From: a virus | IMG/VR virus record: IMGVR_UViG_3300046010_001404 | Span: 1 to 31,202 of that record | Strand: one strand, 5' to 3' | Length of the DNA: 31,202 nt | Shown here: positions 8,868-31,202 of the stretch, piece by piece | Layout: each line of letters opens with the position of its first letter | Numbering within the stretch: the stretch's first letter is position 1 | The notes under the pieces: generated by a model | What the model was told of the DNA's origin: nothing | The model's input: the letters and a program-made list of their open reading frames with translations, nothing else | Database searches by the model: none | Position numbers and translations under genes: made by a program

Positions 8868-8910
8868 TACATTCGTACTTCATAGAGTTTTTGTTTTTCA
8901 AGTTAGGTTA

Positions 8911-8938
8911 AGCCCTCATCGTTTGGTGGGGGTTTTTT
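8911..8938 (+). terminator. Rho-independent terminator ending the late transcript
   Basis: AGCCCTCATC (8911-8920) pairs over ten positions (three G-T) with GGTGGGGGTT (8925-8934) around the loop GTTT, followed by a T-run. It separates the lysis block from the early region. Confidence 0.9.
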
Positions 8939-9020: not shown

Positions 9021-9053
9021 ACCACTCATCATTATATTTTACCGTTCATCACA
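9021..9053 (+). promoter_or_regulatory. Bipartite regulatory element, copy A
   Basis: ACCACTCATCA (9021-9031) and ACCGTTCATCACA (9041-9053), with starts 20 bp apart. The same pair with the same 20-bp step occurs at 11773 and 17129. The second half-site begins 42 bp before the -7 element at 9083, so the pair lies just upstream of the polymerase footprint, a place typical of activator sites. Confidence 0.75.
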
Positions 9054-9057
9054 TTTA

Positions 9058-9090
9058 TTGTTTTTAATCGAAACAGTAGACATATATTTG
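9058..9090 (+). promoter_or_regulatory. Early promoter P1
   Basis: TTG (9058-9060), 22 bases, then TATATTTG (9083-9090): an exact match to the flavobacterial promoter pattern TTG-N17-23-TAnnTTTG. It drives the small-gene cluster that begins at 9114. Confidence 0.8.
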
Positions 9091-9113
9091 TTGAAACAAA
9101 AAACATAAAAGAT

Positions 9114-9362
9114 ATGAAAGCAATTTTAAACACATTAAGAAAAAAAAATGTAAGTTACGGAAGATTTGAAGTTTCAATTGAATTTGAAGGTGTAATTTAC
9201 AAATCAAGCACAAACAATACACTTGCGATTAATGCTGCATTTGATGATGATTATGATGATGAAAATAATTTAGGAAGATACTATGTTACGCAATTTGAAG
9301 CACAAGCATCTTTAATAAATGACATTATAAATGAGAATGGATTAGAAATTGAAATGCTATAA
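9114..9362 (+). CDS. Early hypothetical protein, 82 aa
   Basis: First gene behind promoter P1, with the ATG 23 bases after the -7 element. 82 residues: a basic N-terminus (LRKKNVSYGRFEVSIEFEG), then an acidic Asp-rich loop AAFDDDYDDENNLGRYYVTQ and a hydrophobic end. No membrane segment. As the first gene of the first early operon it is a candidate for a host-takeover function, but no family is recognised. Confidence 0.72.
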   Translation: MKAILNTLRKKNVSYGRFEVSIEFEGVIYKSSTNNTLAINAAFDDDYDDENNLGRYYVTQFEAQASLINDIINENGLEIEML

Positions 9363-9390
9363 TAATTTTAACCTTTAAAAACAAAGCAAT

Positions 9391-9558
9391 ATGAATCTAA
9401 AAAAATGGCTAAACAAAAACACCAAGCCGACTAAACTAGAAAACACTTATACACCTCCAATGGGTGTGAATGATGCAAACAGAAAGCAACACTTCACAAC
9501 TTACAATGTAGAGTTAATGAATGAGATACGTAGAATCAAATTAAACGAGAACAAATGA
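9391..9558 (+). CDS. Small early protein, 55 aa
   Basis: ATG at 9391 after the AT-rich leader AAAGCAAT, stop at 9556-9558 overlapping the next ATG as ATGA. The 55-residue product is basic (MNLKKWLNKNTKPTKLENTY at the start) with a C-terminal NEIRRIKLNENK. The tight overlap with the next gene supports it. Function unknown. Confidence 0.6.
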   Translation: MNLKKWLNKNTKPTKLENTYTPPMGVNDANRKQHFTTYNVELMNEIRRIKLNENK

Positions 9559-9743
9559 CAGCAAAACAAAAAGCAAATGAGTTAGTAGATAAGTACGTGG
9601 AATACGTAGAGGCTTATTCTTCACAAGGACAAATCGAGAACGCTAAAATATGTGCATTGATAGCGGTGAATGAGATACTAGCACTAGATTCAATCCCTAT
9701 GTTTTGGGTGGATGTTAAACGAGAAATACAAGCAATAAGATGA
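9555..9743 (+). CDS. Small helical early protein, 62 aa
   Basis: 62 residues, almost wholly helical: KQKANELVDKYVEYVEAYS, then ICALIAVNEILALDSIPMFW. The pattern 'A-x-E-L-V-D-K-Y ... A-x-I-A-V-N-E-I' is one I have seen in small Bacteroidota phage and prophage proteins of unknown role. Joined by ATGA overlaps on both sides. Confidence 0.7.
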   Translation: MTAKQKANELVDKYVEYVEAYSSQGQIENAKICALIAVNEILALDSIPMFWVDVKREIQAIR

Positions 9744-10009
9744 AAACAGGAGATAAAGAAAAAGCTAAGATAAGAGCTGAAATTATTATGAGTTTAAAAG
9801 AAGGTTATAAACCAAAAGTAAAACAAACTGCCGTAGAGTGGTTTTATCAAAGAATCCTAGCAAAAGATATTAAATCAATATTTGAACAAGCCAAAGAATT
9901 AGAAAAGCAGCAAATAATAAAAGCAATCTATGATTCAATGGGAACAAATTTAGATCCTAACATGGGCAGAGCAGAACAGTATTATAATGAAACCTTTAAA
10001 AATAAATAA
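9740..10009 (+). CDS. Small helical early protein, 89 aa
   Basis: 89 residues, helical and charged. The core TAVEWFYQRI followed by IFEQAKELEKQQIIKAIYDS and a C-terminal AEQYYNETFK is a conserved layout in short Bacteroidota phage proteins; function not known. It starts within the stop of the previous gene (ATGA). Confidence 0.72.
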   Translation: MKTGDKEKAKIRAEIIMSLKEGYKPKVKQTAVEWFYQRILAKDIKSIFEQAKELEKQQIIKAIYDSMGTNLDPNMGRAEQYYNETFKNK

Positions 10010-10010
10010 G

Positions 10011-10193
10011 ATGAAAGACACAATAGTAGAAAGCGTAATTAACCAATTTAGAGAACGCTCAGAGTTTGGAATTAAGAAGTACGGTACAACACTTGACCGA
10101 ACAGATTTAAGTACGTTAGATTGGATTTTACACGCACAACAAGAATTAATGGATGGAATTTTATATTTAGAAAAATTAAAACAAACTATATGA
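10011..10193 (+). CDS. Small phage protein with FGIKKYGTTLDR motif, 60 aa
   Basis: I take the ATG at 10011, one base after the previous stop, over an ATG at 9987 inside the preceding gene. The 60-residue product (EFGIKKYGTTLDRTDLS, then WILHAQQELMDGILYLEKL) fits the short helical phage family in which 'KYG-x-x-L' is followed by 'A-x-E-E-x-x-D-x-x-x-Y-L'. It recalls part of a MazG-like all-alpha fold but is too short to claim pyrophosphatase activity. ATGA link to the next gene. Confidence 0.72.
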   Translation: MKDTIVESVINQFRERSEFGIKKYGTTLDRTDLSTLDWILHAQQELMDGILYLEKLKQTI

Positions 10194-10465
10194 TAAAATA
10201 TAAAGATACAATAGACCGAGGATTCAAAAGATTTGATTTAGGTAACGATCAGGTTTGGCTCGATACATACGGTTACGAATGGTTCATAACTGAGAAACGA
10301 TTAGCTAAACTTACAAAGGGAAATATTACAGCTAACTGGTGTCCTGAGACTCAAACGATTGAAGTAATGCGGTTAATAGATGGGAGCATAATGGAGCGAC
10401 AATCGTTTTCTGATATAGCAGAGTTTGATAAGTTTGATAAATTTTTAAATCCTGCTTCGATATGA
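10190..10465 (+). CDS. Early hypothetical protein, 91 aa
   Basis: ATG at 10190 shares ATGA with the previous stop; an upstream in-frame ATG at 10121 lies inside the previous gene and is unlikely. The 91 residues (FDLGNDQVWLDTYGYEWFIT, then ITANWCPETQTIEVMRL, and FDKFDKF near the end) look like a small beta-rich globular domain. No family recognised. Confidence 0.7.
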   Translation: MIKYKDTIDRGFKRFDLGNDQVWLDTYGYEWFITEKRLAKLTKGNITANWCPETQTIEVMRLIDGSIMERQSFSDIAEFDKFDKFLNPASI

Positions 10466-10653
10466 CCATAGGACAAAGAGTGTATTCAAAGCATTACCAG
10501 TGCAAGGGTACAGTTGCAAGGATTAAAGACATGAGCGAAGATTATCCAGTTGTAGTTAGCTTCGATAGTGGATCGGTTGACTATTATACACTAGATGGGA
10601 AGATGTACATTGAGTTTGATGTTAAAGACTTGGAAGATGAGAAAGACATTTAG
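10462..10653 (+). CDS. Small SH3/KOW-like protein, 63 aa
   Basis: 63 residues: IGQRVYSKHYQCKGTVARI, VVVSFDSGSVDYYTLDGK, ending acidic. The pattern of a strand, a Gly-rich turn and 'V-x-V-x-F-D-x-G' resembles a small SH3/KOW-type barrel found in many phage early proteins. Coupled by ATGA upstream and a 17-base overlap downstream. Function unknown. Confidence 0.7.
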   Translation: MTIGQRVYSKHYQCKGTVARIKDMSEDYPVVVSFDSGSVDYYTLDGKMYIEFDVKDLEDEKDI

Positions 10654-11014
10654 ACAATTAACAGATGAAGAGAAACTGCAGATATCAGTTCAATTCCATC
10701 TGCAAACACTTAAACGGATGTCGGATAAATTCAACGTATCTAAGTCAACTATTCAGCGAGTAGTTACCAACTTCTTTAAGGATAAGCGGATTGATGTTAC
10801 AGGGTTAACGGTAACTCAGATAATGGATAAATACAAAGTTACTATGGGTAAGGCTATTACGTTACAAATGAAGTTTGATAAGCCGTTAGGCGGTAATCTA
10901 TACTTCGGTCAAGTTAAAGAAGCTATCTACTCTAATGAAGATGAGATGATGATACCAAGTTACTCGGTTAAAGATTTGAAGGGTGATGAATTACTAATAC
11001 TAAATACAATATGA
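10637..11014 (+). CDS. HTH protein, candidate early regulator
   Basis: Start chosen at ATG 10637, giving 125 residues; an ORF from 10595 would overlap the previous gene by 59 bases. The N-terminal half has an HTH: ISVQFHLQTLKRMSDKFNVS followed by KSTIQRVVTNFFKDKR (about 15-50), reading as helix-turn-helix with 'M-S-D-K-F-N-V-S-K-S-T-I-Q-R-V'. A second short helical piece TVTQIMDKYKVTMGKAI (about 58-74) also resembles an HTH. It is one of two DNA-binding candidates in the first early operon and could be the protein that recognises the bipartite element. That link is a guess. Confidence 0.68.
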   Translation: MRKTFRQLTDEEKLQISVQFHLQTLKRMSDKFNVSKSTIQRVVTNFFKDKRIDVTGLTVTQIMDKYKVTMGKAITLQMKFDKPLGGNLYFGQVKEAIYSNEDEMMIPSYSVKDLKGDELLILNTI

Positions 11015-11289
11015 AAAAGTTTGTACAATACGATTATAGTAATAAATTCCCTGAAGAATTACTACGAATAAATGATGAACTTGCCCCGCTTCAAGAAGAA
11101 ATTATAAAATCTCTTATAGCGAAAGTTGAAGAAGAAATTAAAAAAGGTCTTATTCGATTAGGTTATGACACTAATAATATTGAGAATTTAAAATGTAATA
11201 CTTTTAGTAAAGAAATTGGTATTGATTTTTCAGAGAGTTATTATATTAATGGTGAATTGATTTGTACTATTAATCCTATTCAATTATGA
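11011..11289 (+). CDS. Early hypothetical protein, 92 aa
   Basis: 92 residues, acidic: QYDYSNKFPEELLRINDEL, a long helix EEIIKSLIAKVEEEIKKGLI, then a beta-rich end (EIGIDFSESYYINGELI). Coupled by ATGA on both sides. More AT-rich than its neighbours. No family recognised. Confidence 0.68.
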   Translation: MKKFVQYDYSNKFPEELLRINDELAPLQEEIIKSLIAKVEEEIKKGLIRLGYDTNNIENLKCNTFSKEIGIDFSESYYINGELICTINPIQL

Positions 11290-11516
11290 CACACGAACAA
11301 AGACTCCTAGCAGCTCAACTACTTCCAGTACTTGCAGACTTCTTAGAAGATGTACCGATGACACATTTAGCAAAGATGAAACGTAATAGACTAATTCAAG
11401 AGATACGTTCATTCGATGCGTTCCTTATGGTAGGTGCTGACCTTGAAGCAATGAATCAACAGATAGCTTTACAACAAGCGTTTAGACAATGGATAAAAGA
11501 AACGTTATGCCAATAA
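11286..11516 (+). CDS. Early helical protein, 76 aa
   Basis: 76 residues, all helical: EQRLLAAQLLPVLADFLEDV, HLAKMKRNRLIQEIRSFDAF, then QQAFRQWIKETL. No membrane segment. Overlaps the following HTH gene by ten bases. Function unknown. Confidence 0.7.
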   Translation: MTHEQRLLAAQLLPVLADFLEDVPMTHLAKMKRNRLIQEIRSFDAFLMVGADLEAMNQQIALQQAFRQWIKETLCQ

Positions 11517-11773
11517 ATAAAACTCAGCTAAGACGATTGAGCGCAATTGTTCACGTCTTGAATCACTCAACTTGTAATACTAAACAGTTAAGATGTAAGG
11601 TATCTGAACTGATTGATGTAGAAGTTTGTAAATCAACTATTGAAAAAGACCTGTATCATCTTAGAATGGAATACGATCTAGATGAATATATTGAACGAAG
11701 CTCTGGAGCTTATCACATACCTGATAAGATAGATTTCATTTCTTTACTTAAGAATCATTTAAACTTATTTTAA
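11507..11773 (+). CDS. Winged-helix-like regulator candidate, 88 aa
   Basis: I choose ATG 11507 (product starts MPINKTQLRRL), which overlaps the previous gene by ten bases; an ATG at 11489 in frame would add six residues. TQLRRLSAIVHVLNHSTCNT, then KVSELIDVEVCKSTIEKDLY and HLRMEYDLDEYI form a helix-turn-helix with a following wing-like strand (ERSSGAYHIPDKI), close to the HTH that precedes WYL domains. It has no WYL domain. It ends at the first base of the bipartite element copy B (11773), next to a promoter it could control. Confidence 0.68.
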   Translation: MPINKTQLRRLSAIVHVLNHSTCNTKQLRCKVSELIDVEVCKSTIEKDLYHLRMEYDLDEYIERSSGAYHIPDKIDFISLLKNHLNLF

Positions 11774-11805
11774 CCACTCATCACCAATAACAACCGTTCA
11801 TCACA
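11773..11805 (+). promoter_or_regulatory. Bipartite regulatory element, copy B
   Basis: ACCACTCATCA (11773-11783) and ACCGTTCATCACA (11793-11805), starts 20 bp apart, identical in both half-sites to copy A. It begins at the last base of the HTH gene stop codon and lies 41 bp upstream of the -7 element at 11834. Confidence 0.75.
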
Positions 11806-11833
11806 ATTACGGTAAACAAGTATATTAATTGTG

Positions 11834-11841
11834 TAACTTTA
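11834..11841 (+). promoter_or_regulatory. Early promoter P2 (-7 element)
   Basis: TAACTTTA matches TAnnTTTG except for the last base. No TTG at the -33 place (TTA instead at 11807-11809), so this promoter would be weak alone and may depend on a factor bound to copy B. It precedes the recombination block starting at 11858. Confidence 0.5.
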
Positions 11842-11857
11842 CAAAAAACAAAACAAT

Positions 11858-12376
11858 ATGAAAACAAAAGACGTTAGCTATCGCATAGCTTACAAATCAG
11901 ACCACCTCGGAGTTATTGACTTAGAGGAAATGTTGGAGAACGGTCAATCTCTAATTGTGACTATCAAAGAGGTATGGCACGAACAGGGCGCAGTTGTCGC
12001 TGGTAGTAAAGGTAATTTTAACATAGCTTACTTTAGCGAATCAATCAAGCCTTTAGTACTTAACGCAACGAATGCCGCAACGATTAGACGCTTGTGTAAT
12101 GGCGGTGCAAATCTGAACACTTGGAAGATGCCAGTTACTGTTGAATTGTACATTGATGCAACTGTTAAGATGAAAGGTCAAATTGTTGGAGGTGTTAGAA
12201 TTAGAAAGGCTTTAAACGTAGCACCACAATTAGACGCTACAGCAGCTTTAAATGTATTAAATGGAGCAACTACACTCGATGACCTTAAAGAGCGTTACAT
12301 GAGTCTATCTAAAGCCGAGCAAGGCTTGAGTGTTGTAGTTGCGAAGAAAGATGAAATGAAAACTAAATTAAATTAA
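11858..12376 (+). CDS. Conserved protein upstream of exonuclease, possible ssDNA-binding partner
   Basis: 172 residues. The core (GNFNIAYFSESIKPLVLNAT, NAATIRRLCNGGANLNTWKM, then VTVELYIDATVKMKGQIVGG and VRIRKALNV) is a pattern I recall from phage proteins next to YqaJ exonucleases: 'KP-x-V-L-N-x-T-N-x-x-T-I' followed by a beta hairpin ending in 'G-x-R-I-R'. The C-terminal third is helical and charged. Two bases separate it from the exonuclease gene. A role in ssDNA binding or annealing together with the exonuclease is likely by context (as in lambda Exo/Bet), but no RecT, Erf or Bet signature is visible. Confidence 0.7.
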   Translation: MKTKDVSYRIAYKSDHLGVIDLEEMLENGQSLIVTIKEVWHEQGAVVAGSKGNFNIAYFSESIKPLVLNATNAATIRRLCNGGANLNTWKMPVTVELYIDATVKMKGQIVGGVRIRKALNVAPQLDATAALNVLNGATTLDDLKERYMSLSKAEQGLSVVVAKKDEMKTKLN

Positions 12377-12377
12377 G

Positions 12378-13025
12378 ATGATAACAAGAAAAGATATTAT
12401 ACAAGGCACTCCCGAATGGATGGAGTGCCGATGGGCTAAAGTTGGCGGTACACGATCAAAAGGATTGTTTACTAAAGGTGATACACTCTATTTAGAGATG
12501 CTAGCAGAGTATACTGAGCAATATGTACACGAAGAAAGTTATCAATCAGCTGCGATGGAACGAGGTAATGAGTTAGAGCCTGAAGCAATATTTGAAATGA
12601 TGCAGTATACCGGTGTTAACGTTCAATCAGTTGGCTGGTTACAATCTGTTGAGTGTCCTATCTTAGGCATATCACCTGACGCAATTAGTGAAGATGAAAC
12701 GATATGTTTCGAGGTTAAGTGTCCTAGCGCAAAGAAGCACGTTGAAAACTGTCTTAGTGCGGATATTCCGCTTGATTATGTACATCAATGCGTACACTAT
12801 TTTACTGTTAATCCTAAACTATCTACTTTATATTTTGGATCGTATAGACCTGAAGCTCTTAAACCTTTAAAAGTTTGGTCGATTAATAGAGAAAGTTTGA
12901 TTAACTTAGGCACGAATGCAAAGCCAGTATTAAAGTCAGTACAAGAATGGAGTGAGATTGCGTTAAAAGAAGCGCATGAGTTAAATATACAAATGAATAA
13001 AGGAGTTGAATTATTAAGTTTTTAA
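12378..13025 (+). CDS. YqaJ/lambda-Exo-type exonuclease
   Basis: 215 residues with the motifs of the YqaJ viral recombinase family: IIQGTPEWMECRWAKVGGT (about 7-25), ERGNELEPEA (61-70, Glu), GISPDAI (Asp101), FEVKCP (Glu112, Lys114) and YVHQC (Gln137). These form the PD-(D/E)xK catalytic site. The enzyme digests one strand of double-stranded DNA ends to feed strand annealing. It lies between the putative ssDNA-binding partner and a DUF3127 OB-fold protein, a complete-looking recombination module. Confidence 0.9.
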   Translation: MITRKDIIQGTPEWMECRWAKVGGTRSKGLFTKGDTLYLEMLAEYTEQYVHEESYQSAAMERGNELEPEAIFEMMQYTGVNVQSVGWLQSVECPILGISPDAISEDETICFEVKCPSAKKHVENCLSADIPLDYVHQCVHYFTVNPKLSTLYFGSYRPEALKPLKVWSINRESLINLGTNAKPVLKSVQEWSEIALKEAHELNIQMNKGVELLSF

Positions 13026-13027
13026 TT

Positions 13028-13363
13028 ATGGAAGTATCAGGAAAGGTAAAATTAGTAAACGCTACACAAGTTGTAAGCGACAAGTTTAGTAAACGTACAC
13101 TAGTAGTTGTTACTAGTGACACTTATCCTCAAGAAATTGAGATACAGTTTACTCAGGATAAATGCAGCTTATTGGATGGGTTATTTGTAGGTGCAGAAGT
13201 TACTATCGGAGTGAACCTTAGAGGTCGAATGTGGACTAATCCACAAGGCGAAGATAAGTACTTTAATACGATTGAGGGTTGGAAGATTGACAAAGTAGGA
13301 TTCCAACAGTCAGCACCAAGCGTACAACCTAGTGTTGAGGTCGAGGATGGGATGCCATTCTGA
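13028..13363 (+). CDS. DUF3127 family OB-fold (SSB-like) protein
   Basis: 111 residues. MEVSGKVKLVNATQVVSDKF at the start, then KRTLVVVTSDTYPQEIEIQF, VGAEVTIGVNLRGRMW and FNTIEGWKI match the DUF3127 layout, a family mostly of Bacteroidota that looks like an OB-fold ssDNA-binding protein ('GK...QKRxLVVxTxxxYPQ'). A short acidic tail (VEVEDGMPF) at the C-terminus is typical of SSB proteins, where it recruits partners. It is the last gene of the recombination block and is followed by a terminator at 13410. Confidence 0.85.
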   Translation: MEVSGKVKLVNATQVVSDKFSKRTLVVVTSDTYPQEIEIQFTQDKCSLLDGLFVGAEVTIGVNLRGRMWTNPQGEDKYFNTIEGWKIDKVGFQQSAPSVQPSVEVEDGMPF

Positions 13364-13377
13364 AAAGTGTTACCTAG

Positions 13378-13611
13378 TGTAACATCGCTTATTGAAACAT
13401 TTAACCTAGAAGCCCCGTAAATGGGGCTTTTTTAATGGTGTAACCTGTAACCTGTAACCTAGGTTACACTTGGTAAAATAAAAAATAAAATAAAAAAATA
13501 AAAATTTATCGGTTTTTTTGATGTTACACGTTACAATTACGCTGAAAGCCTTATACACATTGAGAAACAGGTGCAACATTAGGTGTAACATAGGTGTAAC
13601 ATCATGTTACA
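13378..13611 (+). repeat. TGTAAC/GTTACA repeat cluster with A/T-only tract, candidate origin
   Basis: TGTAAC occurs at 13378, 13439, 13446, 13453, 13584 and 13595 and its complement GTTACA at 13463, 13523, 13530 and 13606. Three copies are in 7-bp tandem (13439-13458) and two in 11-bp tandem (AGGTGTAACAT at 13582 and 13593, preceded by a TGCAAC variant at 13572). Between the two clusters is a 36-bp stretch of only A and T (13474-13509). Iterons plus a melting tract next to the primase-helicase gene is the layout of a replication origin. An operator cluster is the alternative. Confidence 0.6.
13410..13433 (+). terminator. Rho-independent terminator after the recombination block
   Basis: AAGCCCC (13410-13416) pairs with GGGGCTT (13423-13429) around GTAAAT, followed by a T-run to 13433. 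Confidence 0.9.
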
Positions 13612-13644
13612 CTAGTAATAAAAGTTAGGATTCCAATAGTAGGA

Positions 13645-13684
13645 TATATTTGTACTACTAGATTAATAATAATTATTATATTTG
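13645..13684 (+). promoter_or_regulatory. Promoter region of the primase leader
   Basis: Two TATATTTG boxes (13645-13652 and 13677-13684). The TTG at 13650-13652 is 24 bases before the second box and can serve as its -33 element. Transcription from the second box would start near 13690, just before the structured RNA. Confidence 0.6.
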
Positions 13685-13687
13685 CGT

Positions 13688-13780
13688 ATAGTTCGATACC
13701 ACATTATAGAACAAAAGGCGTTATTTAGCCCTTATTAGAAAGTCGAGGTGGTATCCGATGAGTATAATAGGGGCTTTTTT
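13688..13780 (+). ncRNA. Pseudoknot-capable leader or small RNA ending in a terminator
   Basis: Two long stems interleave. Stem 1: GATACCAC (13695-13702) with GTGGTATC (13748-13755), 8 perfect pairs. Stem 2: 13727-13737 with 13765-13775, 11 pairs (one G-U), immediately followed by six Ts (13775-13780). As the 3' strand of stem 1 lies in the loop of stem 2, the fold is an H-type pseudoknot. Stem 2 plus the T-run is a terminator five bases before the primase start codon. With the promoter at 13677 this gives an RNA of about 90 nt: either a stand-alone small RNA or an attenuator/switch of the primase operon. No known class recognised. Confidence 0.6.
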
Positions 13781-13785
13781 ATTAA

Positions 13786-16056
13786 ATGCAAAGTATGACA
13801 GTTGAAGAAAGAAAAAAATTAGAACAACAAGCACTATCATTTTTAGACCATTTTTCAGTTGTTACAGTTGGGGAACAAAAGAAACCTAACCAAGAATGGA
13901 AAATACTACAAACTCAAAAACAATCTAGGGAACAATTGATTGAGAGTATAAACAGATCCAGCACTCAAGCATTTGGATTTATGGGAGGGTTTGATTTTCT
14001 TGAATGTGTTGATATTGATACTAAAGTATTTTCAACTCAGATTGAAAAGGATGAGTTTTGGAATGAGTATTACCAAACATTGAAGGATTCAATAGTTGAC
14101 TTTGAAGATAAATTTACTGTTTATGTAACTCGCTCTGGTGGCTTTCACATTCTTTACAAATCGAAGCGAGTTGTAGGTAATACTGATATAGCTAAATTGA
14201 AAGGTCATAAAGAATGTTTAATTGAAACTAGGGGAACGGGTGGATATATCTTTGCGTATCCAAATAAAAGATATGCTAAAAAAACTTATTTTGAGATTGA
14301 ATTTGTAACAGATGCTGATCGTGAAACGCTTTGGAATATTTCCAAGAGTTACAATTATATTCAAGATAAACCTGAAGAGCCAAAAAAAGATAAAAAAGTT
14401 TATTCAGCTGATGAAATAACACCATGGCAAGACTTTAATGAAAAGACTGATATTTGGAATGTTATACAAGAAGATTTCTTTGTACCAGCAAACGGTCAAA
14501 AGAAGAAACATTATCTTATTAAACGCCATGGATCTGAAGCTGCGCATTCAGGATCAGTATTTAGAGATAGTGGTTGTATGTATCTATTTAGCACAGGTAC
14601 AATTTACCCACACGAAAAACTAGTTAGCCCATTTGCTGCCTATACTTATAAATATCATAATGGAGATTTTAAAGCAGCATCTATTGATTTGTACGATCAA
14701 GGATTTGGAAGTAGATTAAAGAAGAAAATTGAAGAGAATAAACCTATAATTGAGAAACCTTTACCAATTGAAAATATTACATTTCCTTTAGATATATTCC
14801 CTAAAGAAATTCAATACTACATTTTGGAATGTAATAGTAAACTAGATAGTAATATTGATTACATGGGCTGTTCTTTAATGTGGTTAATATCGGTTTGTGT
14901 TGGTAATTCATTTGAGATTGAAGTAAAGCGTGGATGGAATGAGAACGGAGTTATTTGGTTGGCAGTTGTGGGTAAGGCTGGTATAGGTAAAACACCTTCA
15001 ATAAATAATATTATATTCCCTTTGAACAAGCTAAACTTTAAAGAAATTAAACGCTATCATATACAACTAGAGCAGTATAATTACTACATGAGTTTACCAA
15101 AGAAAGAAAAAGAAGAACTATCTGAGCCACCTAAACCAATCAAAACACAATTTATAGCAAACGATATTACACTTGAAGCATTAGTTGATTTGCACCAAGA
15201 AAGTGATAATGCTGTTGGTGTATTCAAAGATGAGCTTGCTGGATGGTTTAAGGATATGAATAAGTATAGACAAGGCTCTGATTTAGAATTTTGGTTATCA
15301 TGTTGGAGTGGTAAATCGGTTTCACTTAATAGAATGACAAGACAAGGATCATTCATTGAGAAACCATTTATTCCTGTTCTTGGTGGTATCCAGCCGAGTA
15401 TATTTAACCAATTTGCAACAGATGAAAATAAGGATAATGGATTTTTAGATCGTATGCTTTTAACCTTTCCAGATGCAAAAGTTGATTCTTATAACGAGAA
15501 TGAATTACACTATTCAGATATTCAATGGTATTCAGATACGATTACTAACTTTTTTCAAACGCTTAAAACTAAGCTACTAAAAAGAGATAATGAAGGCAGA
15601 ATACAAACTCAGTTAAGTAAGTTCGACAAAGAGGCTAAAATCGAATGGAAACGAATATTTAATAAGATTACAGAACACCAAAATAATGAAGATGAGAATG
15701 AGTATCTTAAATCGATGTATCCAAAACAGAAATCTTATATTCCAAGGTTCGCTTTGCTAATACATTTATTTTCTTCAGCGTTTGAGGATAATGTTAAGTC
15801 GATGGAAATATCTAAAGAAAGCATATTAAAAGCGGAAAGACTAAGCGACTATTTTGTAATGAATGCAAAGAAGATTAAGATTGAAGCGACTGAAATAAAG
15901 GACTTGAAAACTGCATCTAAAGGTGTTGAGAATACATTTGATAAATTAAAAGCTATTCATTCAGCAGATCCAAACTTTAACCGTTCAAAGGTTGCTGAAT
16001 TGTTAGGAGTTTCAAGAGTACAAATACAACGTTTAATTAAAAAAATAGAAGGATGA
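13786..16056 (+). CDS. Primase-polymerase / DUF3987 helicase fusion
   Basis: 756 residues. The N-terminal ~200 residues are an archaeo-eukaryotic-type prim-pol: FGFMGGFDFLECVDIDTK (Asp76, Asp78 metal ligands), TRSGGFHILYK (His121) and LIETRGTGGYIFAYP (146-159). The middle (about 210-330) is a linker domain. The C-terminal part is DUF3987-type ATPase: GKAGIGKT (Walker A, 396-403), then VGVFKDELAGWFKDMNKY (Walker-B-like Asp-Glu), GSDLEFWLSCWSGK, PVLGGIQPSIF and GFLDRMLLTFPD (Arg finger). The very end (VAELLGVSRVQIQRLIKKI) is an HTH that may bind origin DNA. This single protein can prime and unwind, and no other replication enzyme is visible, so the host polymerase is likely used. Start at 13786; an ATG at 13795 is an alternative. 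Confidence 0.88.
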   Translation: MQSMTVEERKKLEQQALSFLDHFSVVTVGEQKKPNQEWKILQTQKQSREQLIESINRSSTQAFGFMGGFDFLECVDIDTKVFSTQIEKDEFWNEYYQTLKDSIVDFEDKFTVYVTRSGGFHILYKSKRVVGNTDIAKLKGHKECLIETRGTGGYIFAYPNKRYAKKTYFEIEFVTDADRETLWNISKSYNYIQDKPEEPKKDKKVYSADEITPWQDFNEKTDIWNVIQEDFFVPANGQKKKHYLIKRHGSEAAHSGSVFRDSGCMYLFSTGTIYPHEKLVSPFAAYTYKYHNGDFKAASIDLYDQGFGSRLKKKIEENKPIIEKPLPIENITFPLDIFPKEIQYYILECNSKLDSNIDYMGCSLMWLISVCVGNSFEIEVKRGWNENGVIWLAVVGKAGIGKTPSINNIIFPLNKLNFKEIKRYHIQLEQYNYYMSLPKKEKEELSEPPKPIKTQFIANDITLEALVDLHQESDNAVGVFKDELAGWFKDMNKYRQGSDLEFWLSCWSGKSVSLNRMTRQGSFIEKPFIPVLGGIQPSIFNQFATDENKDNGFLDRMLLTFPDAKVDSYNENELHYSDIQWYSDTITNFFQTLKTKLLKRDNEGRIQTQLSKFDKEAKIEWKRIFNKITEHQNNEDENEYLKSMYPKQKSYIPRFALLIHLFSSAFEDNVKSMEISKESILKAERLSDYFVMNAKKIKIEATEIKDLKTASKGVENTFDKLKAIHSADPNFNRSKVAELLGVSRVQIQRLIKKIEG

Positions 16057-16190
16057 AAACACTAGGCAACGCTAAAGAAGTATCTCAAGGTTTGGGAATG
16101 CTATCGATTAAAGAAATGGTAAAAAAAGAGAAACAACGATTACTAGAAAATGAAAAGGAATTATTAATTAAACGATTGAAGGGGTTATGA
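16053..16190 (+). CDS. Small coiled protein, 45 aa
   Basis: ATG at 16053 shares ATGA with the primase stop and the stop at 16190 shares ATGA with the next start. The 45-residue product is a basic helix (MVKKEKQRLLENEKELLIKR). The double coupling makes it a real small gene. Function unknown. Confidence 0.6.
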   Translation: MKTLGNAKEVSQGLGMLSIKEMVKKEKQRLLENEKELLIKRLKGL

Positions 16191-16672
16191 GAACGGTTGA
16201 AATATCAAAACAACAAATTGAAAGAGCAAAAAAATTATACCCATTTAAAGAATTAAAAGGATCTATTACAAAAGGTAAAAGCAATATTTATGGTGCTTTA
16301 GGTGAGATTATTATTTATGATATAAATAAAAATAAAGGTTTAAATGTGGATTTTAATTCTACTTATGACTATGATTTAATAATAGAAGATTATACAGTAG
16401 ATGTAAAAACAAAAAGAACAACAGTTATTCCAAAGTCTCATTATCTTTGTAGTATATCATCTTTTAATACAATGCAAAAATGTGATTTTTATTTTTTTTT
16501 AAGGATTAACGAAAACTTAAAAGAATGTTATTTGCTTGGATATAAGAAAAAAATAGATTTTTTTAACGAAGCTATATTTAATAAAAAAGGAAGTTTAGAT
16601 GTTAATGGATGGCCTTTTAAAGATGATTGTTATAATTTAAAAATAGAAAATTTAGAAGACTTTAAATACTAA
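16187..16672 (+). CDS. Putative PD-(D/E)xK nuclease-like protein
   Basis: 161 residues. GALGEIIIYD (Glu40), YDYDLII (Asp63) and VDVKTKR (Asp72, Lys74) are arranged like the E...D-x(8)-DxK site of restriction-type nucleases, so I read it as a possible endonuclease. The 'GALGE' helix before the core is also seen in other phage nuclease-like proteins. The gene is clearly more AT-rich than its neighbours and carries a run of nine Ts (16492-16500), which suggests a recent arrival. It sits between a small coiled protein and a VRR-NUC protein. Confidence 0.6.
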   Translation: MRTVEISKQQIERAKKLYPFKELKGSITKGKSNIYGALGEIIIYDINKNKGLNVDFNSTYDYDLIIEDYTVDVKTKRTTVIPKSHYLCSISSFNTMQKCDFYFFLRINENLKECYLLGYKKKIDFFNEAIFNKKGSLDVNGWPFKDDCYNLKIENLEDFKY

Positions 16673-16675
16673 TTG

Positions 16676-17143
16676 ATGACCAAAGCAAACAAAGCCCGCC
16701 TATTAGAACACCATTACAAACAGATGGCGGTCAAGTATCCTAACTTCCCAAAGCACGCTGTACCAAGCAAGACATGGAGCGACACAAGTGCAAACGGATT
16801 GACTAAGTGTGTTATAGATCTAATCAACTACGAAGGTTATCAGGCGGAACGGATATCAACTCAAGGAACGTATGTTGAAGGTGCTAAGATTAAGGTAGGC
16901 GAGAACGAACGCCAGCTCAAAGGTAAGTACATCCCAACACAAGGTACAAAGGGAAGTGCAGATATAAGCGCAACGATTAGAGGTAGATCCGTTAAGATTG
17001 AAATTAAGTACGGAAAGGACAAACAAAGCGAGGTACAAAGGGAATATCAGGAATCAATTGAGCGTGCTGGAGGAATTTATATTATAGTTAGGAGCTTCGA
17101 TGAGTTTGTGGATTGGTTTGATGAGTTCACCGCCCATCATTAA
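16676..17143 (+). CDS. VRR-NUC-type nuclease, possible Holliday junction resolvase
   Basis: 155 residues from ATG 16676; a TTG three bases upstream is less likely. The C-terminal half has the VRR-NUC pattern: QGTKGSADISATI (Gly-Ser-Ala-Asp), KIEIKYGKDKQSEVQREYQE (Glu-x-Lys, then Ser...Gln) and AGGIYIIVRSFDEFVDWF. GYQAERISTQGTY upstream supplies the first acidic residue. VRR-NUC proteins cut structured DNA such as junctions or flaps, fitting resolution of replication or recombination intermediates before packaging. Its last 15 bases carry half-site 1 of the bipartite element copy C. Confidence 0.82.
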   Translation: MTKANKARLLEHHYKQMAVKYPNFPKHAVPSKTWSDTSANGLTKCVIDLINYEGYQAERISTQGTYVEGAKIKVGENERQLKGKYIPTQGTKGSADISATIRGRSVKIEIKYGKDKQSEVQREYQESIERAGGIYIIVRSFDEFVDWFDEFTAHH

Positions 17144-17161
17144 TTTAAACCGTTCGTCACA
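17129..17161 (+). promoter_or_regulatory. Bipartite regulatory element, copy C
   Basis: ACCGCCCATCA (17129-17139) and ACCGTTCGTCACA (17149-17161), again 20 bp apart. Half-site 1 lies inside the end of the VRR-NUC gene, so the spacing is kept although the DNA is also coding. The second half-site begins 42 bp before the -7 element at 17191, the same as copy A. Confidence 0.72.
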
Positions 17162-17190
17162 TAACTGATTAAGTTATAGAATAATATACA

Positions 17191-17198
17191 TATATTTG
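17191..17198 (+). promoter_or_regulatory. Early promoter P3 (-7 element)
   Basis: TATATTTG, exact -7 consensus, 29 bases upstream of the ATG at 17228. No TTG at the expected -33 position, as for P2, which suggests dependence on an activator bound to copy C. Confidence 0.65.
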
Positions 17199-17227: not shown

Positions 17228-17428
17228 ATGGCTGACATAACAAAATGCAAAGGGGAGGGCTGCCCACTTAAAGAAAGCTGTTACCGATTCACATCTGAGG
17301 CGAGTGAGAGACAAAGCTACTTTTTCACACCTCCATTCGATGGCAAGACTTGTGAGATGTACTGGGGAAAGCATTCAGAATCTATATACAATCAACTTAA
17401 AAATATAACAGATGAAAATAACAATTGA
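17228..17428 (+). CDS. Small four-cysteine protein, 66 aa
   Basis: 66 residues with Cys7, Cys12, Cys18 and Cys42: KCKGEGCPLKESCYRFT, then QSYFFTPPF and CEMYWG. Four cysteines and the 'CPLK-x-x-CYRF' pattern suggest a bound zinc ion or Fe-S cluster. I recall similar short proteins in Bacteroidota phages, of unknown role. First gene behind promoter P3. Confidence 0.75.
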   Translation: MADITKCKGEGCPLKESCYRFTSEASERQSYFFTPPFDGKTCEMYWGKHSESIYNQLKNITDENNN

Positions 17429-17633
17429 ATTTGACGAGCAAGAAGATGCTAAGTTAGCACTAGAGGCTTTCGATTGGAAACACACAGTAATGCAGTTAGA
17501 CGATTTACTAAGATACACTACTAAGCATGGAATGTACCAAAATCGAGAGGCAACATCTGATGAATCAGACATGGCTTATTACCTCCGAGAACAAATAAGA
17601 GAATTTACTAATGACAATAACTTAGTACTATGA
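17412..17633 (+). CDS. Early hypothetical protein, 73 aa
   Basis: 73 residues, acidic. KITIEFDEQEDAKLALEAFD followed by WKHTVMQLDDLLRY is a small alpha-beta pattern that I have seen in phage proteins, where 'EFD...A' is followed by a helix and 'DLxR'. It overlaps the cysteine protein by 17 bases and the next gene by ATGA. Function unknown. Confidence 0.7.
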   Translation: MKITIEFDEQEDAKLALEAFDWKHTVMQLDDLLRYTTKHGMYQNREATSDESDMAYYLREQIREFTNDNNLVL

Positions 17634-17896
17634 GACTTTTCGGATTTAACGGAACACAAACTAGCTTTGAGATAAGACTAGAGGATGATATTGAGGTAAG
17701 CTATTGCGACTTTACGCTGAGACCTGACTATATTAAGATTCATTCAATTGAGTTTGTGCATGAGGAGGATGCTGACCTAGTTAACCTAGAGATACTAGCC
17801 AAGACGATGTATGAATATATTGATTGGAATGAGATGGCACAAGACGCATTCGATACCTACCAGCAAGCGTGCGAGGATAATCTAAGAGAGTTATGA
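17630..17896 (+). CDS. Early hypothetical protein, 88 aa
   Basis: 88 residues, strongly acidic, starting beta-rich (LFGFNGTQTSFEIRLEDDIE) and ending helical (YEYIDWNEMAQDAFDTYQQ). Such acidity is a trait of DNA-mimic or inhibitor proteins but is not proof of one. ATGA overlap on both sides. No family recognised. Confidence 0.65.
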   Translation: MRLFGFNGTQTSFEIRLEDDIEVSYCDFTLRPDYIKIHSIEFVHEEDADLVNLEILAKTMYEYIDWNEMAQDAFDTYQQACEDNLREL

Positions 17897-18040: not shown

Positions 18041-18574
18041 ATGAACGCATCATGGTTAAGCCACATATCAAAATATCATACTGAATGGGTTAAGCTCGTT
18101 AAGTCTTGGGGTGAGCATGATTACGCTGAAGATATAGTACAAGAAATGTATATTAGATGCCTAAACTATACAACAGAAGAAAAGATAGTTAAGGATAACC
18201 AAGTTAACAAGGGTTATATTTGGTTTGTTCTACGATCAGTGTTTATGCTTTACAAAAAGGAATGTTCTAAAGTCAGTAAAATTAGAATAGATGAATCATT
18301 TGACTTAGAAGAAATATTAGATAATCAATGCAATACTAGTTACTCAAAGATTCTACATAGAATAGATGAAGAAAAAAACTCTTGGCATTGGTATGATATT
18401 AAACTGTTTGACTTATACCTAACTAGTGGCATGAGTATGAGAGAGATAGAAGCTGAAACAAATATATCACTTACCTCAGTATTTCACACTATAAAGAACT
18501 GTAAGAAAAGAATAGCTAAGGCAGTAGGTGAAGACATAGAAGATTATTATAACCAAGATTACGAATTGATATGA
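18041..18574 (+). CDS. Sigma-70/ECF-like factor, candidate late regulator
   Basis: 177 residues. Region-2-like part: AEDIVQEMYIRC (29-40), the 'D-x-V-Q-E-x-F-x-R' signature, then GYIWFVLRSVFMLYKKE (58-74), similar to regions 2.3-2.4. Region-4-like part: TSGMSMREIEAETNISLTSV (about 128-147) and FHTIKNCKKRIAKA, an HTH of the 'S-x-x-E-I-A' type. Overall it looks like a reduced sigma factor. It lies at the border between early genes and the terminase-led late block, which suits a switch to late transcription. There is no anti-sigma factor nearby. Confidence 0.72.
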   Translation: MNASWLSHISKYHTEWVKLVKSWGEHDYAEDIVQEMYIRCLNYTTEEKIVKDNQVNKGYIWFVLRSVFMLYKKECSKVSKIRIDESFDLEEILDNQCNTSYSKILHRIDEEKNSWHWYDIKLFDLYLTSGMSMREIEAETNISLTSVFHTIKNCKKRIAKAVGEDIEDYYNQDYELI

Positions 18575-29898: not shown

Positions 29899-30852
29899 AT
29901 GGCTACACAAACTAACATGACAACCAGCTATGCTGGAGAATTTGCTGGCAAGTACATTGCTGCTGCAATCTTGTCTGCTAACACAATTGAATCGAACTTA
30001 ATTACGGTTAAACCAAATATTAAGTATCGTGAAGTATTAAAGAACATCGCAGTTAACGACATCGTTAAGAATGGTGGATGTGACTTTGATCCAACATCTA
30101 CAGTTACATTAACTGAGCGTTCACTACAACCTGAATCATTAAAAGTAAACTTACAACTTTGTAAGGCTGATTTCCGTTCAGATTGGGAAGCGGTATCTAT
30201 GGGTTACTCAGCTACTGATGTAATGCCTAAGAACTTTGCTGATTTCTTGATTGCACACGTAGCTGCTAAAGTTGCTGCTAAGATGGAAACAACTATTTGG
30301 TCAGGTGTTAATGCTAACCAAGGAGAATTTGATGGATTTGAAACGTTGTTAGCTGCTGATGCTGCTCTACCATCTGCTCAAGAAATTGCTGGTACTACTG
30401 TTGCTGCTTCAACTATCTTAGTTGAATTGCGTAAAATTATCAACGCTATTCCTGACCGTTTATATGGTTACGAAGGATTCGCTATCTACTGTTCACAAGC
30501 TATCTTTAAGGCTTACATCCAATCATTAGGTGGATTCGGTACTTCAGGATTAGGTGGAAATGGTGTTAACGCAATGGGTTCAATGTGGTACACAGATGGA
30601 TCTGTTTCTGTTGATGGTGTTCCTTTGGTAATGTGTAAAGGTATGACTTCAACAGTTGCTATCGCTACTTACAAAGACAACTTGTATTTCGGTACTGGTT
30701 TGTTGAATGACCACCAAGCGGTTAAAGTTATCGATATGGAGGACATCGATGGTTCAGAAAATGTACGTTTCATCATGAAGTTTACAGGTGCTGTTAACTA
30801 CGGTAACGTTACTGACATCGTTACTTACGGTATCACAAACTCAGCTAACTAA
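29899..30852 (+). CDS. Major capsid protein
   Basis: 317 residues. The size, position after protease and scaffold, and codon use of a highly expressed gene fit a HK97-fold major capsid protein. Parts with typical character: SAGEF-like N-arm, NIKYREVLKNIAVNDIVKNG (about 40-59), VNLQLCKADFRSDWEAVSMG (about 83-102), VELRKIINAIPDRLYGYEGF (about 176-195) and a C-terminal IDMEDIDGSENVRFIMKFTG (about 283-302). Family motif memory is limited, but similar capsids occur in Bacteroidota phages. A terminator lies 21 bases after the stop. Confidence 0.88.
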   Translation: MATQTNMTTSYAGEFAGKYIAAAILSANTIESNLITVKPNIKYREVLKNIAVNDIVKNGGCDFDPTSTVTLTERSLQPESLKVNLQLCKADFRSDWEAVSMGYSATDVMPKNFADFLIAHVAAKVAAKMETTIWSGVNANQGEFDGFETLLAADAALPSAQEIAGTTVAASTILVELRKIINAIPDRLYGYEGFAIYCSQAIFKAYIQSLGGFGTSGLGGNGVNAMGSMWYTDGSVSVDGVPLVMCKGMTSTVAIATYKDNLYFGTGLLNDHQAVKVIDMEDIDGSENVRFIMKFTGAVNYGNVTDIVTYGITNSAN

Positions 30853-30917: not shown

Positions 30918-31202
30918 ATGCCATGTGATTTAAGTTTAGGAAGATTACTTCCATGTAAAGACACAGTAGGAGGATTAAAAGCTATTTTCTTCATGAACCA
31001 AGGGGACATGACAGGAGTAACTTATGATTCAACAAATACTGATGTTATTGAAACCGTAACGGGTACACCTAGCGGTTATAAGTATGATTTGAAAGGAGCT
31101 GCTAGTTCATTTGAACAAACAATTGTAACTTCAAGAGATACGGGTACTACTTTCTTTGAGCAGACTTTAAACTTGACGTTGACTAAGCAAGATATTGCTA
31201 CT
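30918..31202 (+). CDS. Probable major tail tube protein, N-terminal part (ends at 385)
   Basis: ATG at 30918, protein starting MPCDLSLGRLLPCKDTVGGL, runs off the window end and continues in frame at base 2 of the window. Whole protein 180 residues. The N-terminal 'C-D-x-S-x-G-R-x-x-P-C-K-D-x-V-G-G' is a motif I recall from tail tube-like proteins of Bacteroidota phages. It is bracketed by terminators at 30873 and 404, next to the major capsid gene, so its level seems set separately from both neighbours. Confidence 0.65.
   Translation, partial: MPCDLSLGRLLPCKDTVGGLKAIFFMNQGDMTGVTYDSTNTDVIETVTGTPSGYKYDLKGAASSFEQTIVTSRDTGTTFFEQTLNLTLTKQDIAT

Follow-up and report, generated by a model that had tools for sequence, protein, structure and literature searches.

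To our knowledge, little is known about the control of early transcription in Bacteroidota phages. The locus studied here raises a definite question: Which protein recognizes the paired half-sites found before three of its early promoters, and does it switch them on or off? The window, that is, the whole stretch of DNA we have analyzed, corresponds to a viral record with a length of 31,202 bases. It has a 127-base direct terminal repeat (1-127 and 31076-31202), therefore the record is probably a complete genome with about 31,075 unique bases. The terminal repeats of two other phages with the same element (G008 and G039) are also 127 bases long, a size which possibly corresponds to the assembly k-mer.

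Operators and promoters in the window

Three operator-promoter units are found, all of them in the + strand. In operator A, half-site 1 is located at 9021..9031 (ACCACTCATCA) and half-site 2 at 9041..9053 (ACCGTTCATCACA). The -7 box of promoter A, TATATTTG, is found at 9083..9090; half-site 2 begins 42 bp before it. Early operon A (9114..11773) follows, with about 11 small ORFs, mostly of unknown function, one of them HTH-like. A terminator-like hairpin (8910..8935, + strand), which is a consensus match only, would end the preceding operon just before this promoter. Operator B has the same half-sites, ACCACTCATCA at 11773..11783 and ACCGTTCATCACA at 11793..11805, with a -7 box (TAACTTTA) at 11834..11841, whose distance to the beginning of half-site 2 is 41 bp. 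Its operon (11858..17143) codes for an unknown protein, a YqaJ exonuclease, SSB, a Prim-Pol/DUF3987 primase-like protein and a nuclease-like protein. In operator C, half-site 1 (17129..17139, ACCGCCCATCA) lies within the 3' end of ORF 16673-17143, while half-site 2 (17149..17161, ACCGTTCGTCACA) includes the core recognized by AlgR, CCGTTCGTC. The -7 box TATATTTG appears at 17191..17198, again at 42 bp, and operon C (17228..17896) contains three small ORFs, the gene for a sigma-like factor (18041-18574) being next.

The general form of the half-sites is ACCGTTCATCA. The original prediction had placed six of them at 9021/9041, 11773/11793 and 17129/17149, the last pair starting inside the end of a coding gene. 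All of them are confirmed, with a period of exactly 20 and the gene overlap just described. It had also described TAnnTTTG-like -7 boxes at 41-42 bp from half-site 2: The distances hold, while the box at 11834 ends in TTTA and not in TTTG. A TTG near -33 is only present in copy A, so two of the three promoters lack it, as had been noted.

Such pairs are not expected by chance: From the base composition, their expected number in the window is 4e-10. We have scored the window with a weight matrix trained on other phages. The proposed scan of the whole genome gives exactly the three known pairs, with 48.1, 47.1 and 44.4 bits. All remaining positions score 5 bits or less, and the maximum in 30 shuffles is 4.3.

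Some other features of the window should be mentioned. The product of 18041-18574 is a weak sigma-factor-like protein coded shortly before the terminase genes, a possible late-gene regulator, in the same place as the sigma-region-2 protein gp35 of phage P12024L. The sequence TATATTAG is present upstream of this gene, and the operator is absent. Between the SSB and primase genes there are about 420 bases (13364-13785) with no convincing + strand gene and no Rfam match. Rfam and tRNA scans of the whole window gave no matches.

Distribution of the element among phages

The element is found in at least 100 other phage contigs in IMG/VR. A first scan gave 108 stretches, which correspond to 103 AT-rich loci and five members of a GC-rich family (L012, L027, L035, L038 and L041). 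This family fits the pattern but has no -7 box, and it has been set aside as unrelated. As an unbiased test of spacing, we scanned IMG/VR for two copies of ACCGTTCATCA separated by any gap of 1-31 bases. The period is exactly 20 in 58 of 60 stretches, or in 56 of 59 pairs when the GC-rich family is left out. With looser half-sites, a period of 20 is found in more than 119 stretches, 21 in three and 19 in one. The 33-base consensus only gives chance matches, of 20 bases or less, when compared with isolated phages.

In near relatives the element is found before the same genes, where its absence would have spoken against the original prediction. It is 97-100% conserved, except for two copies: one with 79%, changed mainly in the spacer, and another with 85%. 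By comparison, the 150 bases preceding promoter B are only 52-59% conserved in six of the seven loci of near relatives. These relatives have retained promoter A, although its first gene has been replaced by another.

A phage may contain from one to about eight sites. They are usually placed before early genes, a few are found shortly before structural genes (G008, G039). Record G033 (L253, L254, L270) has eight operator matrix matches, one of them probably the same site at both ends. Its structural module is different, most of its operators have a -7 box at 42 bp, and its regulon looks the largest. Two loci, the second of them chromosomal, have three tandem half-sites in 20-bp steps instead of two (L049, 10987-11039; L196, 4328-4378). 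A group of phages (L059, L077, L083, L113-L116 and L133) has an inverted half-site, GAACGGT, after half-site 2 and across -33, with TAAATTAG or a similar -7 box at about 42 bp.

Similarity to LytTR operators

Operators recognized by LytTR domains consist of 9 bp repeats, mostly 12 bp apart (11-13), located about 10 bp upstream of the -35 box (PMC6193735). The BrsR repeats of S. mutans are ACCACTTAT and ACCGCTTAT with 12 bp between them; a Bacteroides LytTR operon has TCCGGTATTCA and ACCGGAAATCA, 11 bp apart and 11 bp before the promoter (PMC6193735). AlgR binds CCGTTCGTC (PMC4064291). The phage half-sites, ACCACTCAT and ACCGTTCAT, resemble both the BrsR repeats and the AlgR site. Across IMG/VR, and in each of the three window copies, they form direct 9-mers separated by 11 bp, with a period of 20. 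In the main class half-site 2 begins 41-44 bp before the -7 box, that is, just upstream of the -33 region. The best explanation of these features is that the element is a LytTR-type operator with two direct half-sites of 9-11 bp, a putative target of a LytTR protein. A search of solved structures with the host LytTR domain found no close LytTR-DNA complex.

Chromosomal copies

We have searched for the strict pair in 84,980 species genomes. Two Bacteroidota sites of period 20 appear, both in Saprospiraceae: The first (L196) is flanked by two LytTR genes that stand alone, and the second (G050) precedes an operon of the hydrolase-LytS-LytTR type. Three further real sites appear when 398 genomes from the order that includes them are scanned with a relaxed pattern. 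Those in G096 and G370 are upstream of hydrolase-LytS-LytTR operons, and the one in G443 (L229) is over the end of a LytTR gene. Another candidate, L222, is a local simple repeat and not an element. These conserved operons code for an alpha/beta hydrolase, a LytS-type kinase and a LytTR response regulator (L226, 2271-5571; L227, 3313-6881; L228, 1401-5010), with a single operator per genome. The hydrolase-LytS-LytTR system occurs in genomes of the order to which the Saprospiraceae genome G049 belongs.

The association can be followed in 32 hydrolase loci: 30 homologue loci, found in 120 genomes of the family that includes G370, plus two of the above operons. The element is present near the start of the hydrolase gene in 14 of them, with 12-43 bits, the highest score in the opposite strand being -2.8. 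Most of the 14 have a -7 box at 42 bp. A LytS kinase is coded downstream of the hydrolase in 11 of the 14 loci with the element, and in none of the 18 without it (Fisher p=2.8e-6). In other Bacteroidota LytS operons, the kinase gene is preceded at 58-224 bp by weaker versions of the repeat. In sequence, period and position, therefore, the phage promoters reproduce the autoregulatory promoter of a LytS/LytTR operon.

Near-consensus sites are rare in chromosomes. They are found in five of the 398 genomes of the order (one of them a repeat) and in two of 247 across the phylum, and the five site-bearing genomes have one site each, even when three mismatches are allowed. Therefore, phages have better and more sites than known hosts, a point against a host regulator. 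As there is one site per chromosome, compared with one to about eight per phage, we interpret the host system as mainly self-regulating and exploited by phages.

Candidate regulators

The abundance of sites in phages could have another meaning: The element might be bound by a phage-encoded activator of another family, its chromosomal copies being bound by a different protein. Near-consensus sites much commoner in phages than in chromosomes, with up to eight in a single phage, would agree with this idea. Such an activator should be coded by the phages, and the original prediction had suggested, besides host proteins, three proteins of the window: an HTH protein (10595-11014), the product of ORF 11489-11773 and the sigma-like factor (18041-18574). 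This suggestion is not supported: Their homologues are found in 0, 0 and three of the 18 other long element-bearing records (1, 1 and 4 of 19, if the window is counted). No regulator, and in fact no non-structural family, is common to all phages with the element, only structural proteins are widely shared. The chromosomal element, on the other hand, tracks LytS/LytTR operons. We consider a phage-encoded activator improbable.

Phage LytTR proteins were also searched for. PF04397 gave no match in 49 element-bearing phage records (the window and 48 others), while control genomes were positive. A profile built from host LytTR domains detected none in 243 viral loci (2.6 Mb), compared with 34 matches in host control loci. 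The evidence points to a host LytTR response regulator, rather than to the phage candidates.

The search for the host itself gave results that count against this reading: 299 genomes of the order contain no prophage relative, only weak and short DNA matches appear in a set of 180 genomes, and no convincing spacer-like (CRISPR-type) link has been found. A 317-aa protein (29899-30852) has a distant match in G515 (28%), which we do not regard as host evidence.

Helical phasing and promoter classes

The position of the -7 box indicates how the bound protein might act. In 76 non-redundant phage sites, we looked for a strict TAnnTTTG at 25-100 bp from half-site 2. It is found only at 41-44 (37 sites), 51-52 (2) and 61-64 bp (13); the opposite-strand control gave five in all. 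A later scan added 26 sites, with the box at 41-42 (12), 51 (1), 61-63 (3) and 72 bp (2). These distances are about 4, 5, 6 and 7 helix turns. A TTTG at -33 is present in only 3 of 37 promoters in the 42-bp class, versus 7 of 13 in the 61-64-bp class (p=0.0014). An element in helical phase with the -7 box fits an activator. Together with the scarcity of a -33 TTTG in the 42-bp class, it is the pattern which would be expected if an activator were in contact with RNA polymerase on a single face of the helix. In element-free relatives, other direct repeats before -7 boxes show no clear excess over the reversed control.

A host LytTR protein might also repress these promoters, for example by keeping early genes off until a signal arrives. 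Some relatives (L059, L077, L113-L116) do have an extra inverted half-site across -33, which speaks for this reading. Nevertheless, the sites are upstream of -33 and in phase with the -7 box, the nearest class of promoters mostly lacks the -33 TTTG, and characterized LytTR repeats located upstream of -35 activate transcription (PMC6193735). Repression seems to us slightly less probable than even a phage-encoded activator. A replication or packaging repeat at operon starts, with no role in transcription, might explain several copies per genome, but it is very hard to reconcile with copies that face the downstream -7 box in only one direction, are in helical phase with it and occur at many separate operons, and we give it almost no weight. 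The original idea of a bipartite activator operator at early promoters is supported by the fixed 20-bp period, the helical phase, the conservation and the scarcity of -33 TTTG in the 42-bp class.

Proposed mechanism and significance

We think it likely, on the basis of these sequence comparisons, that the phages carry a copy of the host LytS/LytTR autoregulatory promoter, and that their early genes are switched on by a LytTR response regulator of the host. This regulator, which would normally act on its own LytS/LytTR operon, would bind the phage operators, two LytTR domains occupying the two direct half-sites 20 bp apart. Once bound just upstream of -33, it would activate early transcription. 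We infer the binding itself, activation rather than repression, the presence of the system in the host of this phage and the switching signal. The results suggest that infection starts by borrowing a host signaling protein.

A more ambitious proposal, which we find rather unlikely, is that LytS/LytTR is an infection-coupled switch in a large group of Bacteroidota phages. LytS/LytTR would then be a membrane- or stress-sensing system: DNA injection or envelope stress would activate the kinase, the kinase would act on the regulator, and the regulator on the operators, so that early genes would start in a single step.

As far as we know, neither the signals nor the targets of a large uncharacterized class of LytS/LytTR systems are known; the element would supply a DNA target for them. 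If the proposed mechanism is true, many Bacteroidota phages rely on a single type of host two-component pathway, and their infection requires a host signal. It might then be possible to predict host range, as well as resistance mutations affecting the kinase or the regulator, and the operator might be useful as a portable activator site for Bacteroidota genetics.

Comparison with known systems

The closest isolated relatives of the window phage are the Nonlabens phages P12024L/S (Inhavirus), with a similar gene order, 57% identity in the terminase and 33% in the portal protein. Unlike the window phage, P12024L has no operator element, as judged by the matrix.

Among known operators, the most similar are the LytTR direct repeats of the BrsR/HdrR type, also those of AgrA, ComE and VirR, which agree with the phage element in their repeats, spacing, position and half-site sequence. 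There are two differences. LytTR operators of the BrsR/HdrR type serve the regulator's own operon or host genes, while the phage element serves phage early operons. The period of LytTR operators is usually 21; that of the phage element is 20, at the short end, which counts against a LytTR site, and it is combined with a Bacteroidota -7 box. The nine-base core of the P. aeruginosa AlgR box, CCGTTCGTC, is found unchanged in operator C (17150-17158). Close direct repeats are not required of AlgR sites, while the phage element as a rule has two sites at 20 bp.

We have not found any literature linking phage promoters to LytTR regulators, in a search whose coverage lies mostly outside subscription journals. 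The nearest precedent is found in cyanophages, some of whose genes are under the control of the host PhoB through Pho boxes, according to the account in PMC10976474, which cites Zeng and Chisholm 2012. In both cases phage promoters contain a site for a host response regulator, a putative one in the Bacteroidota phages. As far as that account goes, the cyanophage system is concerned with phosphate stress and a selection of genes, and gel shifts support it (PMC10976474). The element studied here would be a LytTR-type site, placed before the main early operons in many phages of Bacteroidota. Compared with the cyanophage case, the regulator would belong to a different family, and its targets would be the principal early operons in a large set of phages.
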